From Corallococcus coralloides DSM 2259 (lineage in GTDB: Bacteria > Myxococcota > Myxococcia > Myxococcales > Myxococcaceae), in the NCBI RefSeq assembly GCF_000255295.1, contig NC_017030.1:2170001-2234000 (forward strand): a DNA stretch of 64,000 bases, written 5' to 3'. The notes under the pieces were generated by a model. That model worked only from the letters and a program-made list of their open reading frames with translations. It was not told the origin of the DNA and ran no database searches. The first letter of the stretch is position 1; each line of letters opens with the position of its first letter. This document shows positions 51,459 to 64,000 of the stretch, one piece after another. The translations under genes were made by a program, and so were the position numbers.

Positions 51459-52340
51459 TCAGGTTCGCGCCGGCAGCCGCTTCTCGAAGAAGAGCTCGGC
51501 GTAGGGATTGTCGTTGTAGCGCTCCATCCGCCGGTACCCCGCGCGCTCGTACAGGGCGATCGCTTCGGTGAGGGTGCTGTTGGTGTCGAGCACGATGCGC
51601 GTGAACCCGTGCGACCGGGCCAGCGACTCCAGGTGCCGCAGCATGCGAGCGCCGAGCCCGGCTCCCCGCCACTCCGGGTGGACCCACATGCGCTTGATTT
51701 CAGCGGCGGGTTTCCGCCCCCCCGCGTTGATGGGCCGGATGCCGCCATACGCGACCGACTCTCCGTCGCTGGTGGCGACGACGTAGTGGGCGCCGGGCTC
51801 TGGCGCGGAAGTGCCCGGGTTGAAGCCGGTGGGAAAGCGCTGCCCCAGTTCGGAGTAGTACCGCCGTAGCGCGGCATGCCCAGCCGGGTCGTCCGGATCC
51901 ACCTCCCGCAGGTGAACGGTGGAGGCGCGGACCAGCAGATCGGCCGTGGCCAGCGCCTCCTCCAGACGCTGCCGCTGACGCGGCGTGAGCGGTTCGGCCA
52001 GCCGGGAGGCGAGCTTCTCGGAGCGGTCGTCGAGTTCGGCGACCGCCGCACGCCCGGGCTCCGTGAGGTTGACGGCGCGCCGGCGTTTGTCGCTTGCATC
52101 GGGCGTGACTTGCACCAGGCCTTCGCGTTCGAGCCGGGAAACGAGGCGGGTGAGGTAGCCGGAGTCGAGATCGAGGCGCTCGCGCAACTCCCGGAGGGTG
52201 GTGCCGCTCGACTGCCCGATCTCGAAGAGGAGCCGCGAGACGTTCAACGGGCGGCCAGTCCCCAGATACGACTCGTCGAGCACGCCGATCCTCTGCGTGT
52301 ACGTGCGGTTGAACTTCCGGATCGTCTGGACGATGGCCAT
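51459..52340 (-). CDS. MarR-GNAT fusion (regulator with acetyltransferase domain)
   Basis: A 293-residue protein when the ATG at 52340 is used. The frame extends 10 codons further, but those codons are a perfect palindrome that looks like an operator, so the shorter start is chosen. Residues about 1-140 form a MarR winged helix (RLLFEIGQSSGTTLRELRERL, DSGYLTRLVSRLEREGLV, DKRRRAVNLTEPG). Residues about 150-293 form a GNAT domain with the acetyl-CoA loop VHPEWRGAGLGARMLRHLE and YERAGYRRM. Known fusions of this type couple gene control to small-molecule or protein acetylation. The target is unknown. Confidence 0.92.
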   Translation of the reverse strand: MAIVQTIRKFNRTYTQRIGVLDESYLGTGRPLNVSRLLFEIGQSSGTTLRELRERLDLDSGYLTRLVSRLEREGLVQVTPDASDKRRRAVNLTEPGRAAVAELDDRSEKLASRLAEPLTPRQRQRLEEALATADLLVRASTVHLREVDPDDPAGHAALRRYYSELGQRFPTGFNPGTSAPEPGAHYVVATSDGESVAYGGIRPINAGGRKPAAEIKRMWVHPEWRGAGLGARMLRHLESLARSHGFTRIVLDTNSTLTEAIALYERAGYRRMERYNDNPYAELFFEKRLPART

Positions 52341-52360
52341 TCTCTGACTCTGGTCAGAGA
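52341..52360. promoter_or_regulatory. Palindromic MarR operator at the start codon
   Basis: TCTCTGAC (52341-52348) and GTCAGAGA (52353-52360) form a perfect 8-base inverted repeat with a 4-base centre. It touches the MarR-GNAT ATG at 52340. Position and symmetry fit an autoregulatory MarR site. The 284 bases from 52361 to 52644 hold no evident gene or hairpin. Confidence 0.65.
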
Positions 52361-52644
52361 TTCGCCGCACGTCAAGCGCTGCGCGCCCCCGTCTGGCACC
52401 GCCGACGATTCGTCCGAAGCAGGGAACGGTTGTGAACCGCTCTCCATGAGAGCCCAGGCCTCATCCCGATGGTCCTGAGCGACGAAATCCCCGGGCCGTT
52501 CGCGGGAGTCACTCGGTGGCGCGCAGCGATATCTCGCGAAGGTGGGTGCCGGCGCTCGTGCCTCGCCATGGCCGGGCTCGCCGGTGTCGTCGACTGCCGC
52601 CTGGCGGGAGGTGACGTCGCGAACATCGCCGTTCTCCAGAGCGC

Positions 52645-54207
52645 TCAGTCGAGCGGGCGGTCGGACTGGAAGAAACAGGCGATCTTCAGGAACCGGAACA
52701 GCGCGTTGTAGGTGGCCCGGTCCAGCCGGTCGATGTCGCTGTCCAGCGCCGCGAGGATCGCAGCGGTGTCGATCTCGCGATGGCGCGATAGCGGAGACTG
52801 TTCGACGAGCTGTCGCAGGTAGGCGCGGTTCTCAGCGATGCCGCGTCGTGCCACCGGGTCGAAGCTCTCCTTGACGTACCCTGTCTCGAACACCGGATCG
52901 CCCAGCCACTGTGTCAGCGTCCGGCGCAGGATGCGGCGGTCGCGCCGGAGTGCGGCGGGCAAGCGTGAGACAAATCGCGCCAGGGCGACGTTCAGATAGG
53001 GATAGACAGGCCACAAGCCGTACCGCAGCAAGCGCTGCGATTGGCTCGCGGCACTTTGCCAGCTGGTCTGTTGCAGCCAGGCCGACGGATAGGTGCTGCG
53101 CGTGCTGAGCGCAGTCGCCATGCCGCGGGCTGAGAGGAAGGGGCACGACGGAGGCTCGGCTGCGACCCCATCCTCCCCGGCCTCACCTTGATAGGCGAAG
53201 TAGAGTTCGTCTCCACCGAATCCCGAGACAAGCGTGTCGATCCCCGCGGAGCGCAGCAGGTGAAATGCGGCTTCGAAGATCTCCGGGTAGTTTTCATCTT
53301 CAGGCGACACCTGATAGCGGCGTCGCCGCAAGCTCCGCGGGGCGAAGGGGGCATAGCGCCCGGCCGGTAGGGACAGGTCGGCGAAGCCGCCAGCGCGGCA
53401 CAACAGCAGGCGGCGCGCGCGTTGCGCTTCCCCCATCGCACCGTCGAACTGCGCCCCCATGCTCATCGCGCCGTCGCCGGTCACGTGCGCGGTGGCCAGG
53501 GCGGTCAGCGCCGAGTCCATCCCCCCGCTCAGCTCCACCGCGGTTCGCCGCGAGTCGAGGGGGCGTGCGTCGAGGATCGAGATCACCGTTTCACGGAACA
53601 GCGCCTCGACATCGACGCCGGGCGGCATTTCACGTGGACCGTCGTGACGCACTGGCTCCGGCAGCACGGCATCCACCCCCGCCGGGGTCACCACCAGGGT
53701 CGCCCCTGCCGTGGCGCGATGGAGCCCCGACACCATCGTCGCCGGGCCATAGGTGGAGATGCCGGCAATCAGGGCGAGTGCGTAATCCCAGACGATCTCG
53801 TGGGGGCCGATGCCGAGCAGGCGGGCATAGTCCCAATCGAAGCGAGCGCGGCCCCCGGTCGCGAGGCAATAGACCGGGATCGATATCGTCGGCGACGCCG
53901 TGTAGCGGATGGCCCGCCGCCGACGGTCGATGGTCAACGCGGCGAAATCAAGCGGGTAGTCCTCGAGGCCGTCGAGGTGTTCCTGGATCAGGCCTTCCGT
54001 AGCGCCGACGACATGTTCGAGCCCTTCCGGATCGTCGGCGAAGCGCTCGAGGACAATGGCGACGATCCGCTCGGCGCCCTCCAGGAGCACGGTCCGCAAC
54101 ATCCGATGCTGCACGAGCAAGACCCGCGAGCGGCCGATGGAAAAGCCCCCCTCGATGAGGCCAAGGGGGCCTGCCAGGTCGTCGAATGCAAGATCGGCTT
54201 GCAACAT
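52645..54207 (-). CDS. Asparagine-synthetase-like amide-forming enzyme
   Basis: A 520-residue protein (ATG 54207; a TTG at 54216 would add three residues). The C-terminal part is an asparagine synthetase ATP-pyrophosphatase domain: AVELSGGMDSALTALA (PP-loop at about 227-232) and LVSGFGGDELYFAYQ. The N-terminal 200 residues resemble the glutamine-amidotransferase half but lack the catalytic N-terminal Cys, as in lasso-peptide cyclases and beta-lactam synthetases, which adenylate a carboxylate and join it to an amine. It follows, with 18 bases between, a 48-residue peptide gene. No RRE, protease or transporter is nearby. The substrate is inferred. Confidence 0.8.
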   Translation of the reverse strand: MLQADLAFDDLAGPLGLIEGGFSIGRSRVLLVQHRMLRTVLLEGAERIVAIVLERFADDPEGLEHVVGATEGLIQEHLDGLEDYPLDFAALTIDRRRRAIRYTASPTISIPVYCLATGGRARFDWDYARLLGIGPHEIVWDYALALIAGISTYGPATMVSGLHRATAGATLVVTPAGVDAVLPEPVRHDGPREMPPGVDVEALFRETVISILDARPLDSRRTAVELSGGMDSALTALATAHVTGDGAMSMGAQFDGAMGEAQRARRLLLCRAGGFADLSLPAGRYAPFAPRSLRRRRYQVSPEDENYPEIFEAAFHLLRSAGIDTLVSGFGGDELYFAYQGEAGEDGVAAEPPSCPFLSARGMATALSTRSTYPSAWLQQTSWQSAASQSQRLLRYGLWPVYPYLNVALARFVSRLPAALRRDRRILRRTLTQWLGDPVFETGYVKESFDPVARRGIAENRAYLRQLVEQSPLSRHREIDTAAILAALDSDIDRLDRATYNALFRFLKIACFFQSDRPLD

Positions 54208-54225
54208 CGCGGTCAACCGCTGGGA

Positions 54226-54372
54226 TCAGGGATAGCCGCCGAACCGGTCGTCGCCCTCGTTGATCTTCGGAGGCATTGGCGAGCCGGGGTCGGACACTTC
54301 AGAGGCAGGCAATACGCTGTCGAGTGCCTTGAGCTGCGCCTGGAGTTGCTTCGACTTAGACGATCTGGTCAT
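54226..54372 (-). CDS. 48-residue peptide, candidate substrate of the Asn-synthetase-like enzyme
   Basis: The ATG at 54372 lies 8 bases from AGGAGG, a very strong ribosome-binding site; ATG 54378 is too close to it. The product has a basic N-terminus (MTRSSKSKQ), an amphipathic helix (LQAQLKALDSVLP), an acidic/Pro-Gly part (SEVSDPGSPMPPK) and a C-terminus INEGDDRFGGYP. This leader-plus-tail layout and its position right in front of an amide-forming enzyme suit a precursor peptide. It does not show the lasso pattern (Thr at -2, Gly1, Asp/Glu at 7-9) clearly. The frame is not random: codon use is ordinary for this genome. Confidence 0.65.
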   Translation of the reverse strand: MTRSSKSKQLQAQLKALDSVLPASEVSDPGSPMPPKINEGDDRFGGYP

Positions 54373-54510
54373 AACCATCTCCTCCTGTCTGGCGGGGTGC
54401 GCCCAACACCAGGCGCCTCGGAAGCCGCCAGATTGACCATCTTGTCAGCAATGACAAGCAGGCACAACAAGCCGAAGGCGCGGTCGTTCAGGGCACCACC
54501 AGGAGAACGC

Positions 54511-58476: not shown

Positions 58477-58503
58477 GGGGCTCCTCAGCGATGGAGGGGC
58501 CCC
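58477..58503. terminator. Terminator between DUF2911 and bshA
   Basis: GGGGCTCCT (58477-58485) pairs with AGGGGCCCC (58495-58503), one wobble pair, loop of 9. It overlaps the 3' end of bshA, which ends at 58485, and serves both converging transcripts. Confidence 0.6.
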
Positions 58504-59648
58504 GTCAGGAGCCGGCGGTAGAGCGCCTCGTAGCGGTCGATGGCGGGTTCCATCTGGAAGTGCTCCAGGACCCGCGCCCGCGCGCGGTGTGAGAAGCCCT
58601 GCCAGCGCTTCGCGTCCTCGACCAACGTGAGCACGTGCCGGGCCATGGCGGGGACGTCCCCCAGCGGCGCCAGGAAGCCCGTCTCTCCGTGCGTGACGAG
58701 CTCCGGGATTCCGCCCAGGTCGCTGGCCACCACGGGAATGCCGCAGCTCAGCGCCTCCAGCGCGGCGAGCCCGAAGCTCTCCTGCTCGCTGGGGAGCAGG
58801 AAGACGTCGGAGGCGGCGATCAGCTCCTCGAAGCGGTCCTGCTTGCCGAGGAACGCGACGCGGCCCTCCAGGCCCATCTCCCGCAGCATCCGCTCCGCGG
58901 GCGAGCGCTCCGGACCGTCTCCCACCATCACCAACCGGCAGGGACGGCGGCGCTGGACCTCCGTGAAGATGGCGACCACGTCGGCGATGCGCTTCACCGG
59001 CCGGAAGTTGGAGACGTGGATGAGCACCGGCTCGGCGTCGTGCAGGTCCGGGAAGAGCGCGCGCAGGCAGGCGCGGTCGCGCACCGGGGCGTAGCGCGCG
59101 GTGTCCGCGAAGTTGGCGATGACGTCGATGGGGACGCTCTCGGGGATGTCGAAGCCCTGCCACGTCGCGCGGCGCAGGTAGGCCGACGGCACCGTCACCG
59201 CGTCGCTGCGCAGGATGGAGAAGCGGGTAATCGGCAGGTAGCTGGGGTCGATTCCCACCAGCGTGGTGTCCGTCCCGTGCAGCGTGGTGACGACGCGCGG
59301 CGCCCTGGGGCCCAGCACCTCGCGCGCCATCCACGCGGCGGTGGCGTGCGGCACCGCGTAGTGGACGTGCAGGATGTCCAGGCGCTCGTAGCTGGCGACC
59401 TCGATCATCTTGGAGGCCAGCGCGATGGGATAGGTGCTGGACTGCTGGAGCGCCGGGTAGTCGCTCTCCGTCACCTCGTGGAAGACGACCTTGCGGTTCG
59501 TGCCATGGAGCCGGACTGGCAGGTCCCGGGCGATGAAGTGGACGCGGTGGCCCCGGTCCGCCATCGCGAGGCCAATCTCCGTGGCGACCATGCCGCTGCC
59601 ACCGAAGGTCGGAAAGCAGGTGATGGCCACGTTGAGCGGGGCGTTCAT
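58485..59648 (-). CDS. bshA: BshA: N-acetyl-alpha-D-glucosaminyl L-malate synthase
   Basis: A 387-residue GT4-family glycosyltransferase, first step of bacillithiol synthesis: UDP-GlcNAc plus L-malate gives GlcNAc-malate. It starts with [26 protein letters not shown], whose GGSG loop holds the sugar nucleotide, then LDILHVHYAVPHATAAWMA and the donor-binding strand LIHVSNFRPVKRI. The EX7E motif is E-S-F-G-L-A-A-L-E within SEQESFGLAALEALSCG. Cytoplasmic. It overlaps bshB1 by four bases (59645-59648) and is the last gene of the bshC-bshB1-bshA operon. Confidence 0.92.
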   Translation of the reverse strand: MNAPLNVAITCFPTFGGSGMVATEIGLAMADRGHRVHFIARDLPVRLHGTNRKVVFHEVTESDYPALQQSSTYPIALASKMIEVASYERLDILHVHYAVPHATAAWMAREVLGPRAPRVVTTLHGTDTTLVGIDPSYLPITRFSILRSDAVTVPSAYLRRATWQGFDIPESVPIDVIANFADTARYAPVRDRACLRALFPDLHDAEPVLIHVSNFRPVKRIADVVAIFTEVQRRRPCRLVMVGDGPERSPAERMLREMGLEGRVAFLGKQDRFEELIAASDVFLLPSEQESFGLAALEALSCGIPVVASDLGGIPELVTHGETGFLAPLGDVPAMARHVLTLVEDAKRWQGFSHRARARVLEHFQMEPAIDRYEALYRRLLTGPLHR

Positions 59649-60451
59649 GAGCGTGCCGGGAAGAACAGGGGCCGGGCGAAGCTATTCCGGCGGAAGTGGT
59701 CGAGCGGGTCGGCCAGTCCCAGCGCCTCGCGGAGGATGTAGGGCTCGCCGTGGGTGACGCCAATCTGCGCGCCATGGAAGCGGTCCCGGGCCTCCAGCGA
59801 GGACAGCGACAGCGGTGAGCCCACCAGCGTGGGCGGGGCGTCCGGGCGGGGCATCACCTGGCTTGCGTAGCAGTGCACCGCGGCCAGCTTGCGCTCGTAG
59901 ACGGCGGAGACGTCGATGATGACGCCAGGCTCGGCCAGGTGCCGCAGCGGGTAGTAGAGGACCTGCCGCGGCGTGAAGGGCTCCGCGGCGGGCTGCGCGT
60001 CGAACCTACGCACGCCCGCGAAGAAGAGGGCGCGCGTCACCAGCGCGCTGGCCGCCTCGTGGTCCGGGTGTCGCTCCTGCTCCCAGGGCACGACGACCAG
60101 CTCCGGACGCAGGCGGCGCAGCGCCTCCACCACGCGGACCACGGCGGCGGTGCGGGCGCGCTCGGGCTCGGGCGTGTCGAAGCCCGCCCACGGATTGAGC
60201 CAGCCGTCGGGCAGCTCCAGGTTCTCCCGGTGGGCCAGCCCCAGCGCGCGGGTGGCGGCTTCTGTCTCCTCCGCGCGGGACTGCGGCGTGCCGCGCGAGC
60301 TCTTCTCGCCGCGCGTCAGGTCGACGATGCCGGTGCGGTAGCCGCGGGCGGCCATGCTCGCCATCAGCCCGCCGCAGAACAGCTCCACGTCATCCGGGTG
60401 GGGGCCAAAGGCGAGGACGTCGATGTTGTAGGCGGTGCCGGTCGCAGTCAT
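59645..60451 (-). CDS. bshB1: BshB1: GlcNAc-malate deacetylase (PIG-L/LmbE family)
   Basis: A 268-residue zinc deacetylase, second step: it removes the acetyl group from GlcNAc-malate to give GlcN-malate. The metal site is H18-P-D20-D21 in [17 protein letters not shown], with a third ligand in the HPDHEA segment ([16 protein letters not shown]). The G-rich ending and the line [16 protein letters not shown] are typical of BshB1. The ATG overlaps the stop of bshC (60448-60451) and its own stop overlaps the bshA start, so all three are translationally coupled. Confidence 0.92.
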
Positions 60452-62073
60452 GGCGTCAGGTCCTTCGAGTCACCGCGGAAGGGGACACACGCGTCCAGCA
60501 CCTGCTTCGTGAAGGCACGCATCCCGATGCGGCAGGCGAAGTAGGGCAGCCCCAGGACCCGCTCCTGGGGCGCGTCCTCCGGGAAGAGGAAAGTGCGCAG
60601 GCGGTCCACCTGTTCGGCCGCCGTGGCATCGCGCCGGGCGAGCGCGCGGCGGTAGCGGCCCGTCAGGCGGGACACCGCGACCCGCACCGTGCCCCGGGTG
60701 CGGCGCAGCGCGTCCTGGAGGCTCGCGTCCACCGCCGACACCTGTCCGGCGACGCGCTCCAGCTCGGAGGAGAATGCGCCGAAGAGGCGGGCCTCCAGGG
60801 CCTCGGGCGTCTCCAGCGGCTCCGGGGCATTCCGCGTGGCCAGCCGCGTGAGCAGCGTGTCGCGCGGCACGTTCACCTCATCCGGCTGGAGCCCCACCTT
60901 GCCCAGCCACCGGCGCGCGCGGTCATCGAGCACGCGGAAGCGGGCCCGGGGAATGGCGAGCGGCATCGGCCGGCCCGCGTGGGCGTAGAGCGGTGCCAGT
61001 TGCGCGAAGTAGGCCAGCTCGCCCGGGCCGCCGACATACGCCGCCGTGGGGAGCCAGGTGTCCTGGAGGAGGGGGCGCAGCAGCGCGGACGTGGTGAAGC
61101 GCAGCGGTTCACGCTCCAGGGCGGCGTGCAGCGCGTCCTGGGAGAGGGCGCTGCCTTCCGGGTGGCCCACCAGACTCCAGGCGCCTGCTTCCGCCGGGTC
61201 CAGCCGGTAGCGCGGGCCATCGAGCGCCTCCGGTGAGAAGAAGCTGAGCGGCGAGCCGGGGCGGACATGGACCTGCACCGCGTAGCCCGCGCGGGTGAGC
61301 GCCTCCGCACGGGCCGCGAGCACCGCGGAGAGGGTCCCCGCTTCCTGGAGGGCGAAGCGATGCACGGGCGCGGCCAGGGGCGCCAGCCGTGCGTCTCTCG
61401 GGTCGAGGAAGACCAGGCCCTCGTCGGCGAAGAGGGACGACAGCACGTCGGTGAAGGCTTGCGCGAGCGTGGCCTCGGGACGGTAGGCCTGCTCCAGCAG
61501 GGAGAGGAACGCCTCCGCGTGGGGTTCTGCTCCCAGCTCGGCGCGGAGGGTGGCCAGGGCGGGGAGGACGCTCGGGCCCAGGTGGCGGTGGGCGATGGGC
61601 GCTCGAGACGCTGCCGCATCCGGAAGCTCGAGCGCCAGTCGACAGGGCCCTCCGCCCGGACGTGGGATGACACAGTGGTCAATCTCCGGAAGGTCGTGGT
61701 CCTCCGTCTGGAGCCAGAAGACGGGAACACAGGGCCGGCCGGTTTCTTCCTGGAGCGCGCGCGCCGTGACGATGGCGGAGGCGGCCTTGTAGAGCGTGTA
61801 CAGCGGGCCCAGGAAGAGGCCCATCTGCTGTCCCGTCACCACCGCCACGGTGCCGGGCCGCGCGAGCAGCGCGAGGTTGTGCTCCCGGGCGGGACTCGGC
61901 GCGAGGCGCGCGTTCTGCGCGGCGAGGACGTCCAGCAGCGCGGGCGACACCGTGCGCGACGCGGCGGCGGCCACGGCCCGGGCGCGCGCTTCACGGTGCC
62001 GGTAGTCATCGGAAAGGAAGGAGAGCGCGGACGCATCTCCGCGCAGCCACGCGGTCGAGAAGGAGGACGTCAC
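60448..62073 (-). CDS. bshC: BshC: bacillithiol cysteine-adding enzyme
   Basis: A 541-residue protein starting with GTG 62073. BshC adds L-cysteine to GlcN-malate, the last step. Motifs of the family: [26 protein letters not shown] near residue 85, then [20 protein letters not shown], the catalytic-domain line [25 protein letters not shown], and the helical coiled-coil tail (about 430-520). It is the first gene of the operon; an open frame continues upstream to the window edge but lies antisense to the PIG-L gene. The start codon overlaps no other gene. Confidence 0.92.
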
Positions 62074-62205
62074 GGCCTGCGGTGATAACAGGTCGTGGCG
62101 GGCCCGCCACCGGAAGTGCGTGCTCGCACGTCGCGTCCGGCCGTGACGGCAGGCGTCATCCCGGAATGAATGCGGACTGCGCGGGTTGGTATAGGGTCCG
62201 TGCGA

Positions 62206-64000
62206 ATGCGGAACCTGCTCCTTGGAATGACGCTGGCCATGAGCCTTGGATTCGGGTCGACGGCGATGGCGAGGCCTACCCGGCAGCTCCACGCGGGTGA
62301 AATCGCGGCGGGCCTGAAGCGGCTCGGAGTGACCGGCAGTGTGCTCTATGTCGCGGCCCACCCGGACGACGAGAACACGCGCCTGCTCGCGTGGCTGGTG
62401 GGAGAGCGCGGCCTGCGCACGGGTTACCTGTCCGTGACGCGCGGGGATGGTGGGCAGAACCTCATCGGCACGGAGCAGGGCGCGCTGCTCGGGCTCATCC
62501 GCACGCATGAGTTGCTCGCCGCGCGGAGCGTGGACGGCGCGGAGCAGTTCTTCACGCGGGCGCGGGACTTCGGCTATTCGAAGAGCGCGGAAGAGGCGCT
62601 GCGCATCTGGGGACATGACGCGGTGCTGGCGGATGTGGTGCTCGCCATCCGGCGCTTCCAGCCGGACGTCATCATCACCCGCTTCACCACGGAGCCGCCG
62701 AACCACGGCCACCACACGGCCTCCGCGCTGCTGGCGGCGGAGGCCTTCATCGCCGCGGCGGACCCGAAGCGCTTCCCCGAGCAGCTGTCCGAGGTGAAGC
62801 CGTGGAAGGCGGACCGCCTGTTGCAGAACGCCTCCTCGTGGTCGTTCAAGCCCGATGAGGACCTGTCCCGCTACGTGAAGCTGGAGGTGGGCGGCTACGA
62901 CGCGTTGCTCGGGCGTTCGTGGGGTGAGGTGGCCGCGGAGAGCCGCAGCCAGCACAAGAGCCAGGGCTTCGGCCAGGCCGCGGACCGGGGCCCCGCCGCC
63001 GAGTACTTCACGCCGCTGGCGGGGACGCTCCCGAAGCGCGACGTGTTCGAGGGGCTCGACTTCTCCTGGAAGCGTTGGGCGGGCTCGGAGGCCGTGTCCC
63101 GCGCGGTGGCCGCCGCGACGAAGTCTTTCGATGCGCGCGCTCCCCACCGCTCCCTGCCCGCGCTCGTCCGCGTCCACGAGGCGCTGACCGCGCTGCCGGA
63201 CACCCACCCGTGGAAGGCGCTCAAGCTGCGTGAGGTGGAGGCGCTCATCGCCAACTGCGCGGGGCTGTTCCTGGAGGTGCGTGCCGCCACGCCCACCGGC
63301 ATCCCGGGGCTGCCCGTGGCGTTGGACGTGGTGGCGCTGAACCGCTCGCCCGCCGCCGTCGAGTGGGTGGGGTTGACGCTGCCAGGCGAGAAACCCGAGG
63401 CCGTGGGGAAGGCGCTGGGCGCGAACGTGCCCCTGAAGCTGTCGCGCACGGTGACGCTGCCGGCGACGGCGCCCATCTCCACGCCCTACTGGCTCCGGGA
63501 GCCTGTCACCGGGGGGCTCTACACGCTCAAGGGCGAGGACCGCGCGCTCACCGGCCAGCCGGAGGGCGTTCCCGCGCTCTCCGTGGCGTTCGAGTACCAG
63601 GTCGCGGGCCGGCGCTTCCGCGCGGTGCGTCCGGTGCTCCACGCCTGGACGGATCCGGTGCGCGGCGAGCTCTACCGTGACTTCGAGGTCGTCCCGCCCG
63701 TCACCGCCACGCTGGCGCAGGACGTGCTCATGTTCCCCAACGGCGAGTCCCGTGCCGTGCCGGTGGTACTGGCCGCGGGGATGGACCTGGTGCCGGGCAC
63801 GGTGCGGATGGTGGCGCCGCCCGGCTGGCGCGTGGAGCCCGCGTCGATCGGGTTCAAGCTCGCGGCACGCGGAGACGAGCGCACCATCACCTTCCAGGTG
63901 ACGCCGCCCCCGGGCTCGACGAAGGAGGGGGTCCTCTCCGTGGAGGTCGACGTGGGGGACCGCGCCTGGTCGTGGAGCGCCCACTCCGTGTCCCATCCCC
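62206..64000 (+). CDS. Large PIG-L family deacetylase (3' end outside window)
   Basis: A partial protein of 598 visible codons from ATG 62206, with a signal peptide (ends near AMA-R). Residues about 43-230 form a PIG-L/LmbE deacetylase domain with the metal motif A-H52-P-D-D55-[12 protein letters not shown], and the second histidine site NHGHHTAS. The rest (about 300-598) is beta-rich and resembles NPCBM/NEW3-type sandwich modules. It should deacetylate an exported GlcNAc-type or other N-acetylated compound. It is divergent from bshC by 132 bases. It could be linked to bacillithiol or its conjugates, but the signal peptide argues for an external substrate. Confidence 0.85.

Follow-up and report, generated by a model that had tools for sequence, protein, structure and literature searches.

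Two adjacent genes in a 64,000-nucleotide stretch of the Corallococcus coralloides DSM 2259 genome (the window), encoding a 48-residue peptide and an asparagine-synthetase-like (AS-like) enzyme, apparently form a previously undescribed pair that would crosslink a Lys and an Asp of the peptide without the usual helper proteins. Its recurrence in unrelated bacteria, with a single invariant Lys-Asp spacing in the peptide, makes the pair look like a minimal peptide-ring system. With moderate confidence, we propose that it is a minimal RiPP unit, in which the enzyme would adenylate the Asp and couple it with the Lys amine into a seven-residue macrolactam. The suggestion of the first-pass annotation that this is a minimal, undescribed peptide-modifying pair thus finds support in the sequences, its standing as a system and its reaction being presumptive. 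We found no description of such a pair in the literature searched, and the result is limited to it. The features of the pair and the predicted cores are collected in Table 1.

Table 1 Features of the gene pair in the window and Lys-x5-Asp cores of the upstream peptides.
Feature	Position	Strand	Sequence	Basis
AS-like enzyme gene, 520 aa, without glutaminase Cys, ATP site intact (stop included)	52645..54207	(-)		Pfam PF00733 and family alignment
Precursor peptide gene, 48 aa (stop included)	54226..54372	(-)	MTRSSKSKQLQAQLKALDSVLPASEVSDPGSPMPPKINEGDDRFGGYP	AGGAGG 8 nt before ATG; homologues 5' of enzyme
Predicted core (Lys-x5-Asp core, window)	54229..54267	(-)	KINEGDDRFGGYP	Lys-x5-Asp across 9/9 enzyme clades, 0/4000 shuffles
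Upstream region with ribosome-binding site (end approximate)	54379..54480	(-)		DNA kept in four genomes
Lys-x5-Asp core, G054			KINEGNDRYGGYP	
Lys-x5-Asp core, G062			KIDEGNDRYGGYP	
Lys-x5-Asp core, Xanthomonas			KPYLGDDSRWYSTQPGG	
Lys-x5-Asp core, Mesorhizobium amorphae			KVRLPGDSATLMYYL	
Lys-x5-Asp core, Bradyrhizobium barranii			KGPFPSDSANEGYL	
Lys-x5-Asp core, Rhizobium binae			KFLVRGDSARYRY	
Lys-x5-Asp core, B. japonicum			KFVLSGDSARFRY	
Lys-x5-Asp core, Rhizobium Pop5			KGGKPGDMDKLDV	
Lys-x5-Asp core, Streptomyces F12			KAAETSDQGRFED	
Lys-x5-Asp core, NBC_00376			KPAGTEDQGYRDEN	
Lys-x5-Asp core, NBC_00334			KMPGGGDNNGDHCSK	

The window enzyme (P0001) matches the Pfam family Asn_synthase with 30.5 bits, against a cut-off of 21, and carries the ATP motifs SGGMDS and GFGGDEL as well as a K449-E450 site (P0001 numbering). 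The SGGxDS loop and the subsequent active-site motifs, also found in the ATP-dependent amide ligases of the AS superfamily, are invariant in all 16 aligned family members, which have in common SGGxDS, GGD, and then a Glu. As the first-pass annotation had noted, the glutaminase cysteine is missing: there is no Cys at position 2 in the window enzyme, nor in any of the 16 aligned members, in contrast to glutamine-dependent asparagine synthetases, which have their N-terminal catalytic Cys at this position. AsnB of the window genome does carry it (MCGI). The absence of this Cys makes an internal nucleophile plausible. By profile, the nearest solved relative is beta-lactam synthetase (1JGT, E 2e-10), which resembles the window enzyme in its degenerate N-terminal domain and, as predicted here, in closing an amide intramolecularly after adenylation, but acts on a small molecule. 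P0001 itself has no NCBIfam match at E 0.1; 11 of the 16 members match NF033561 (albusnodin-type cyclase; best E 2.7e-10) and 10 match NF033535, all weakly and with scores far under the cut-offs of the lasso models. AlphaFold2 gave a pLDDT of 32 on four close Myxococcaceae enzymes.

The peptide gene has 48 codons, counted from an ATG located 8 nt after an AGGAGG, and the enzyme ATG follows 18 nt past its stop codon, in agreement with the earlier description of a short gene with a strong ribosome-binding site 18 bases before an AS-like gene. Another in-frame ATG, at 54378, sits too near the AGGAGG and was dismissed as the start. The enzyme ATG is kept in all four intact Myxococcaceae copies, and the two genes are closely coupled and probably co-translated. 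Readthrough of the TGA between them was rejected even though this codon and the frame are kept in 4/4 copies, because the spacer varies in sequence; we thus read the TGA as a true stop. DNA 5' of the peptide is conserved to about 90-115 bp in four genomes, with diverging flanks beyond, and the upstream region in Table 1 is presumed to hold the promoter and 5' UTR of the pair. Right before the ribosome-binding site (54379-54420, minus strand), a G+C-rich short inverted repeat (GCGCC...GGCGC) is seen by eye in 4/4 Myxococcaceae copies, and is a possible 5' UTR hairpin.

Among 195 Myxococcota genomes, six contain the enzyme gene, intact in G000, G027, G062, and G054, as a 3' half in G070, and as a fragment in G019. 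The four Myxococcaceae genomes with the intact pair encode enzymes 86-91% identical to that of the window, with the peptide gene directly 5' in every case and an equal spacing of 162 nt between matching in-frame positions. The peptide homologues adjoining the enzyme on its 5' side in G027, G054, and G062 are 74-86% identical to the window peptide, which has no other convincing match among 145 genomes of the order; the pairing is thus not a matter of chance. A scan of genome contigs with P0001 turned up only a copy in Myxococcus dinghuensis, and a phylum search with a diverse family profile found no further Myxococcota members. DNA identity between the copies spans about 100 bp 5' of the peptide gene together with both genes and stops at the enzyme stop codon, and the surroundings of the copies are otherwise unlike, apart from a downstream neighbour common to G027 and G062. 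The conserved unit is therefore the two genes, which are kept by selection and degraded in two other genomes. Indeed, enzyme dN/dS is 0.15-0.22 between Myxococcaceae pairs, and whole-peptide dN/dS is 0.28-0.79 across all pairs, values that few changes underlie; residues 1-30 of the peptide exceed 1 in one pair. A FAD-type monooxygenase gene adjoins or nears the pair in several relatives (L014 8392-9870, L015, L016, L018). It was considered as a third gene, being adjacent in G027 and G062, and rejected, as 44 of the 92 family genomes have it and almost all of these lack the pair; in the window genome it lies about 15 kb from the pair.

Beyond the Myxococcota, tblastn of the window enzyme against plasmids returned 43 records, with 24-30% identity among the matches listed. 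Distant enzymes, 20-30% identical, are found on plasmids of Rhizobium, Mesorhizobium, Bradyrhizobium, Xanthomonas, and Streptomyces, and further searches, seeded with these sequences, led to a coherent family from the same genera and Aminobacter. No relatives were found in scans of viral contigs and phages. In an unrooted tree with two true lasso cyclases and AsnB proteins, the family is split off at 100/100; one outgroup row of the tree (Asn2_own) may be a wrong ORF, which leaves the split from the lasso cyclases and the MCGI-type AsnB unaffected. Two true lasso clusters appear only at the detection edge of the family searches (E 3e-3 and 5e-3); in one, the gene next to the cyclase is annotated as B2, and in the other a peptidase-like ORF occupies this position.

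A short ORF preceded by a Shine-Dalgarno-like site also lies just 5' of the distant enzymes; some records label it hypothetical, and others leave it unannotated. Such ORFs accompany every intact Myxococcaceae copy (4/4) and, among the plasmid homologues examined, nearly all. The first-pass annotation had named two results that would speak against it, homologous enzymes lacking a peptide gene 5' and a peptide that is not conserved, and neither was observed. The peptides, 31-54 residues long and mostly unalignable, each contain a Lys-x5-Asp toward the C-terminus, usually beginning 13-17 residues from the end. This is the sole residue pair and distance common to all nine enzyme clades, which share ancestry. 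Shuffled peptides reach a mean of 2.0 of the nine clades and never nine in 4000 shuffles, and two of 4000 reach nine when the comparison is widened to all residue pairs and all distances up to 15, for a rule that was derived from the same sequences that back it. An ORF with Lys-x5-Asp in its last 20 residues lies 5' of 18 of 20 plasmid family genes, compared to none of 99 control genes from the same plasmid records and the window; this count applied the rule after its discovery, several of the plasmid loci are near-copies of each other, and the choice among candidate upstream ORFs was guided partly by nearness to the enzyme and leader similarity. The remaining two loci are a Bradyrhizobium copy with a frameshift and a Mesorhizobium locus whose ORF has a longer tail. 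In Bradyrhizobium sp. 41S5 (L121 2794-2988), the frameshift in the peptide precedes the predicted core, and this copy is probably inactive. An initial motif, [GSN]D[STDNM], was dropped for the stronger Lys-x5-Asp.

In the window peptide, the key feature, a Lys followed by an Asp at a distance of exactly six residues, places the likely start of the core at K36. Of the two Asp residues in the GDD of the window, the first (D41) is replaced by Asn in G054 and G062, whereas D42 is invariant, which points to the second as the acid involved. The acidic tail GDDRFGGYP, named in the first-pass annotation, is not in itself the key feature; the conserved spacing does lie near the C-terminus. A precursor conserved beside its enzyme, with a constrained C-terminal core, is expected of a RiPP precursor/maturase pair and is seen here.

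No known peptide maturation gene was found by Pfam among the scanned neighbours of the pair in the window, which are a MarR-GNAT fusion, an ankyrin protein, an alpha/beta hydrolase, a glucose/sorbosone dehydrogenase, a histidine kinase, a Big_9/SMP-30-like protein, and a GT4/PIG-L pair. For these neighbours, the earlier claim that the pair adjoins no gene for an RRE, a leader protease, or a transporter was correct. The genome, a single contig of 10,080,619 bases, has no lasso cyclase over the cut-off, one partial borderline match to the B2-type Transglut_core3, located elsewhere, and two PqqD-like genes, both unlinked to the pair. PADLOC gave no match.

Enzymes of the AS family activate carboxylates by forming an acyl-adenylate (PMC13060819; PMC9266682), and those acting in RiPP pathways are established as lasso cyclases, amidases, and nitrile synthetases (PMC13060819). 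In the mechanism that we propose, the AS-like enzyme would bind the precursor by itself and use ATP to adenylate the beta-carboxylate of D42, and K36, six residues earlier, would displace AMP, yielding a Lys-Asp isopeptide macrolactam of seven residues with a six-residue C-terminal tail. The crosslink is predicted to join K36 and D42, as an invariant acid and an invariant amine at fixed spacing argue for a Lys-Asp lactam. The Lys side-chain amine is favoured as the nucleophile because it would require no leader removal, which would account for the lack of a linked protease or RRE; an unlinked protease could instead free the Lys alpha-amine. We infer the reaction, the attacking amine, the timing of leader removal, and the export and role of the product from sequence comparisons.

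A side-chain to side-chain bond between Lys and an acid, made with the leader attached, would resemble those of graspetides, omega-amide or omega-ester peptides formed by ATP-grasp ligases. Unlike these ligases, the enzyme here is AS-like, with adenylation expected; the Asn_synthase (PF00733) is the sole linked enzyme, and no ATP-grasp gene was detected among the scanned neighbours. More tentatively, we suggest that the family represents a RiPP class that spans Myxococcota, Alpha- and Gammaproteobacteria, and Actinomycetota and whose lone AS-like cyclase without RRE, leader protease, or partner would form a side-chain Lys-Asp macrolactam at i,i+6 in a leader-bearing precursor, perhaps with threading of the tail, using lasso-cyclase chemistry with a new nucleophile. 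If so, two genes would suffice for a macrocyclic peptide, providing a compact, engineerable cyclization tool. This would also explain AS-like enzymes without an adjacent RRE or leader protease, which searches relying on those could miss; when Asn_synthase proteins encoded close to RiPP elements were surveyed recently, about 300 candidates were left uncharacterized once lasso cyclases had been set aside (PMC13060819). The K-x5-D rule would then serve as a simple search pattern.

Lasso peptide systems consist of a precursor (A), an RRE and peptidase (B), and a cyclase (C), and the N-terminus of the core must be freed ahead of cyclization. Our pair shares with them, including the albusnodin type, an AS-like enzyme without the glutaminase Cys, a short precursor with a C-terminal core, and an Asp presumed to be adenylated and joined to an amine. 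Lasso cores have their Asp or Glu 7-9 residues in, and the Asp here would be residue 7 (Asp7) of a core starting with the conserved Lys. The main rival to our proposal is accordingly a non-canonical lasso peptide, for which an unlinked or general protease would cut before the Lys, so that the Lys1 alpha-amine is joined to Asp7 and the seven-residue ring is threaded by the tail. The Lys-to-Asp distance equals that of seven-residue lasso rings, such as those of xanthomonins and huascopeptin (Gly1-Asp7), cited in PMC13352647; the core length of 13-17 residues fits small lasso peptides, and the nearest named models include lasso-type cyclases. We nevertheless consider this unlikely. Neither the window neighbours (Pfam) nor the annotations of the plasmid loci include a linked B1, B2, or RRE gene, no Thr is conserved at leader position -2, where the nine clades have P, E, L, Y, A, M, D, R, or L, and an invariant Lys stands where lasso residue 1 is usually Gly (PMC12427821). 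The enzymes also score far below the lasso models and form a clade apart from the two true lasso cyclases, so the earlier statement that this is not a standard lasso cluster can be maintained. The pair probably functions as lasso or graspetide maturases do, yet among the features compared it lacks some that are characteristic of each.

It is quite unlikely that the enzyme instead uses ammonia or another external amine to modify one carboxylate, converting Asp to Asn or forming a C-terminal amide or nitrile, and closes no ring. Such chemistry is known for AS-like enzymes, including the RiPP amidases and nitrile synthetases TsrC, ScdTA, and PesC, which the window enzyme would resemble in acting on a ribosomal peptide, and PesC takes free ammonia as well as glutamine (PMC13060819). 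However, PesC has glutamine as nitrogen donor and MNIO partner genes and modifies a C-terminal carboxylate (PMC13060819), whereas our pair lacks both Cys2 and a partner gene, and its acid is internal. This reading would leave the invariant Lys at fixed spacing unexplained, and modification of the C-terminus is disfavoured because clades differ in their C-terminal residue and in how far it lies from the Asp. That the short ORF encodes no substrate and serves instead as a leader or regulatory peptide, or as a small partner protein, with the enzyme acting on a small molecule like beta-lactam synthetase, would fit the close coupling of the genes and the nearest solved relative but is very unlikely, as the peptide is conserved as a protein, the Lys-Asp spacing persists across otherwise unalignable peptides, and the position of the catalytic Tyr348 of beta-lactam synthetase is F333 in the window enzyme (P0001 numbering) and variable across the family, with Tyr only in the R. 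binae group.

The rhizobial loci have neighbours of their own. A phosphotransferase gene lies 3' of the enzyme in R. binae, R. leguminosarum Vaf-108, Rhizobium NLR16a, B. japonicum, and Mesorhizobium L-2-11, followed in most such loci by a GNAT gene, and GntR genes occur near most of them (L061, L062, L063, L052, L122). These neighbours possibly serve in tailoring or self-resistance. Since Lys acetylation can be a self-resistance mechanism in lasso peptides (PMC13352647), one guess, by analogy, is that the phosphotransferase and GNAT genes protect the producer. On plasmids of the Rhizobium leguminosarum group, an acyl-homoserine-lactone synthase gene adjoins the pair (L065 4817-8997; L064, L123, L054), and in strain 3841 of this group the pair is located just before nifH, which suggests a tie to quorum sensing or symbiosis. 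None of these rhizobial partners accompanies the window pair.

Two other observations concern the window itself. The MarR-GNAT fusion protein is encoded downstream of the pair (51459-52370, minus strand). Further away, the GT4 glycosyltransferase and PIG-L deacetylase genes identified by Pfam adjoin each other (58485-60451, minus strand), and the ORF after them looks BshC-like by eye; the region 58485-63996 (minus strand) is possibly a bacillithiol-type BshA/BshB/BshC cluster in a myxobacterium.
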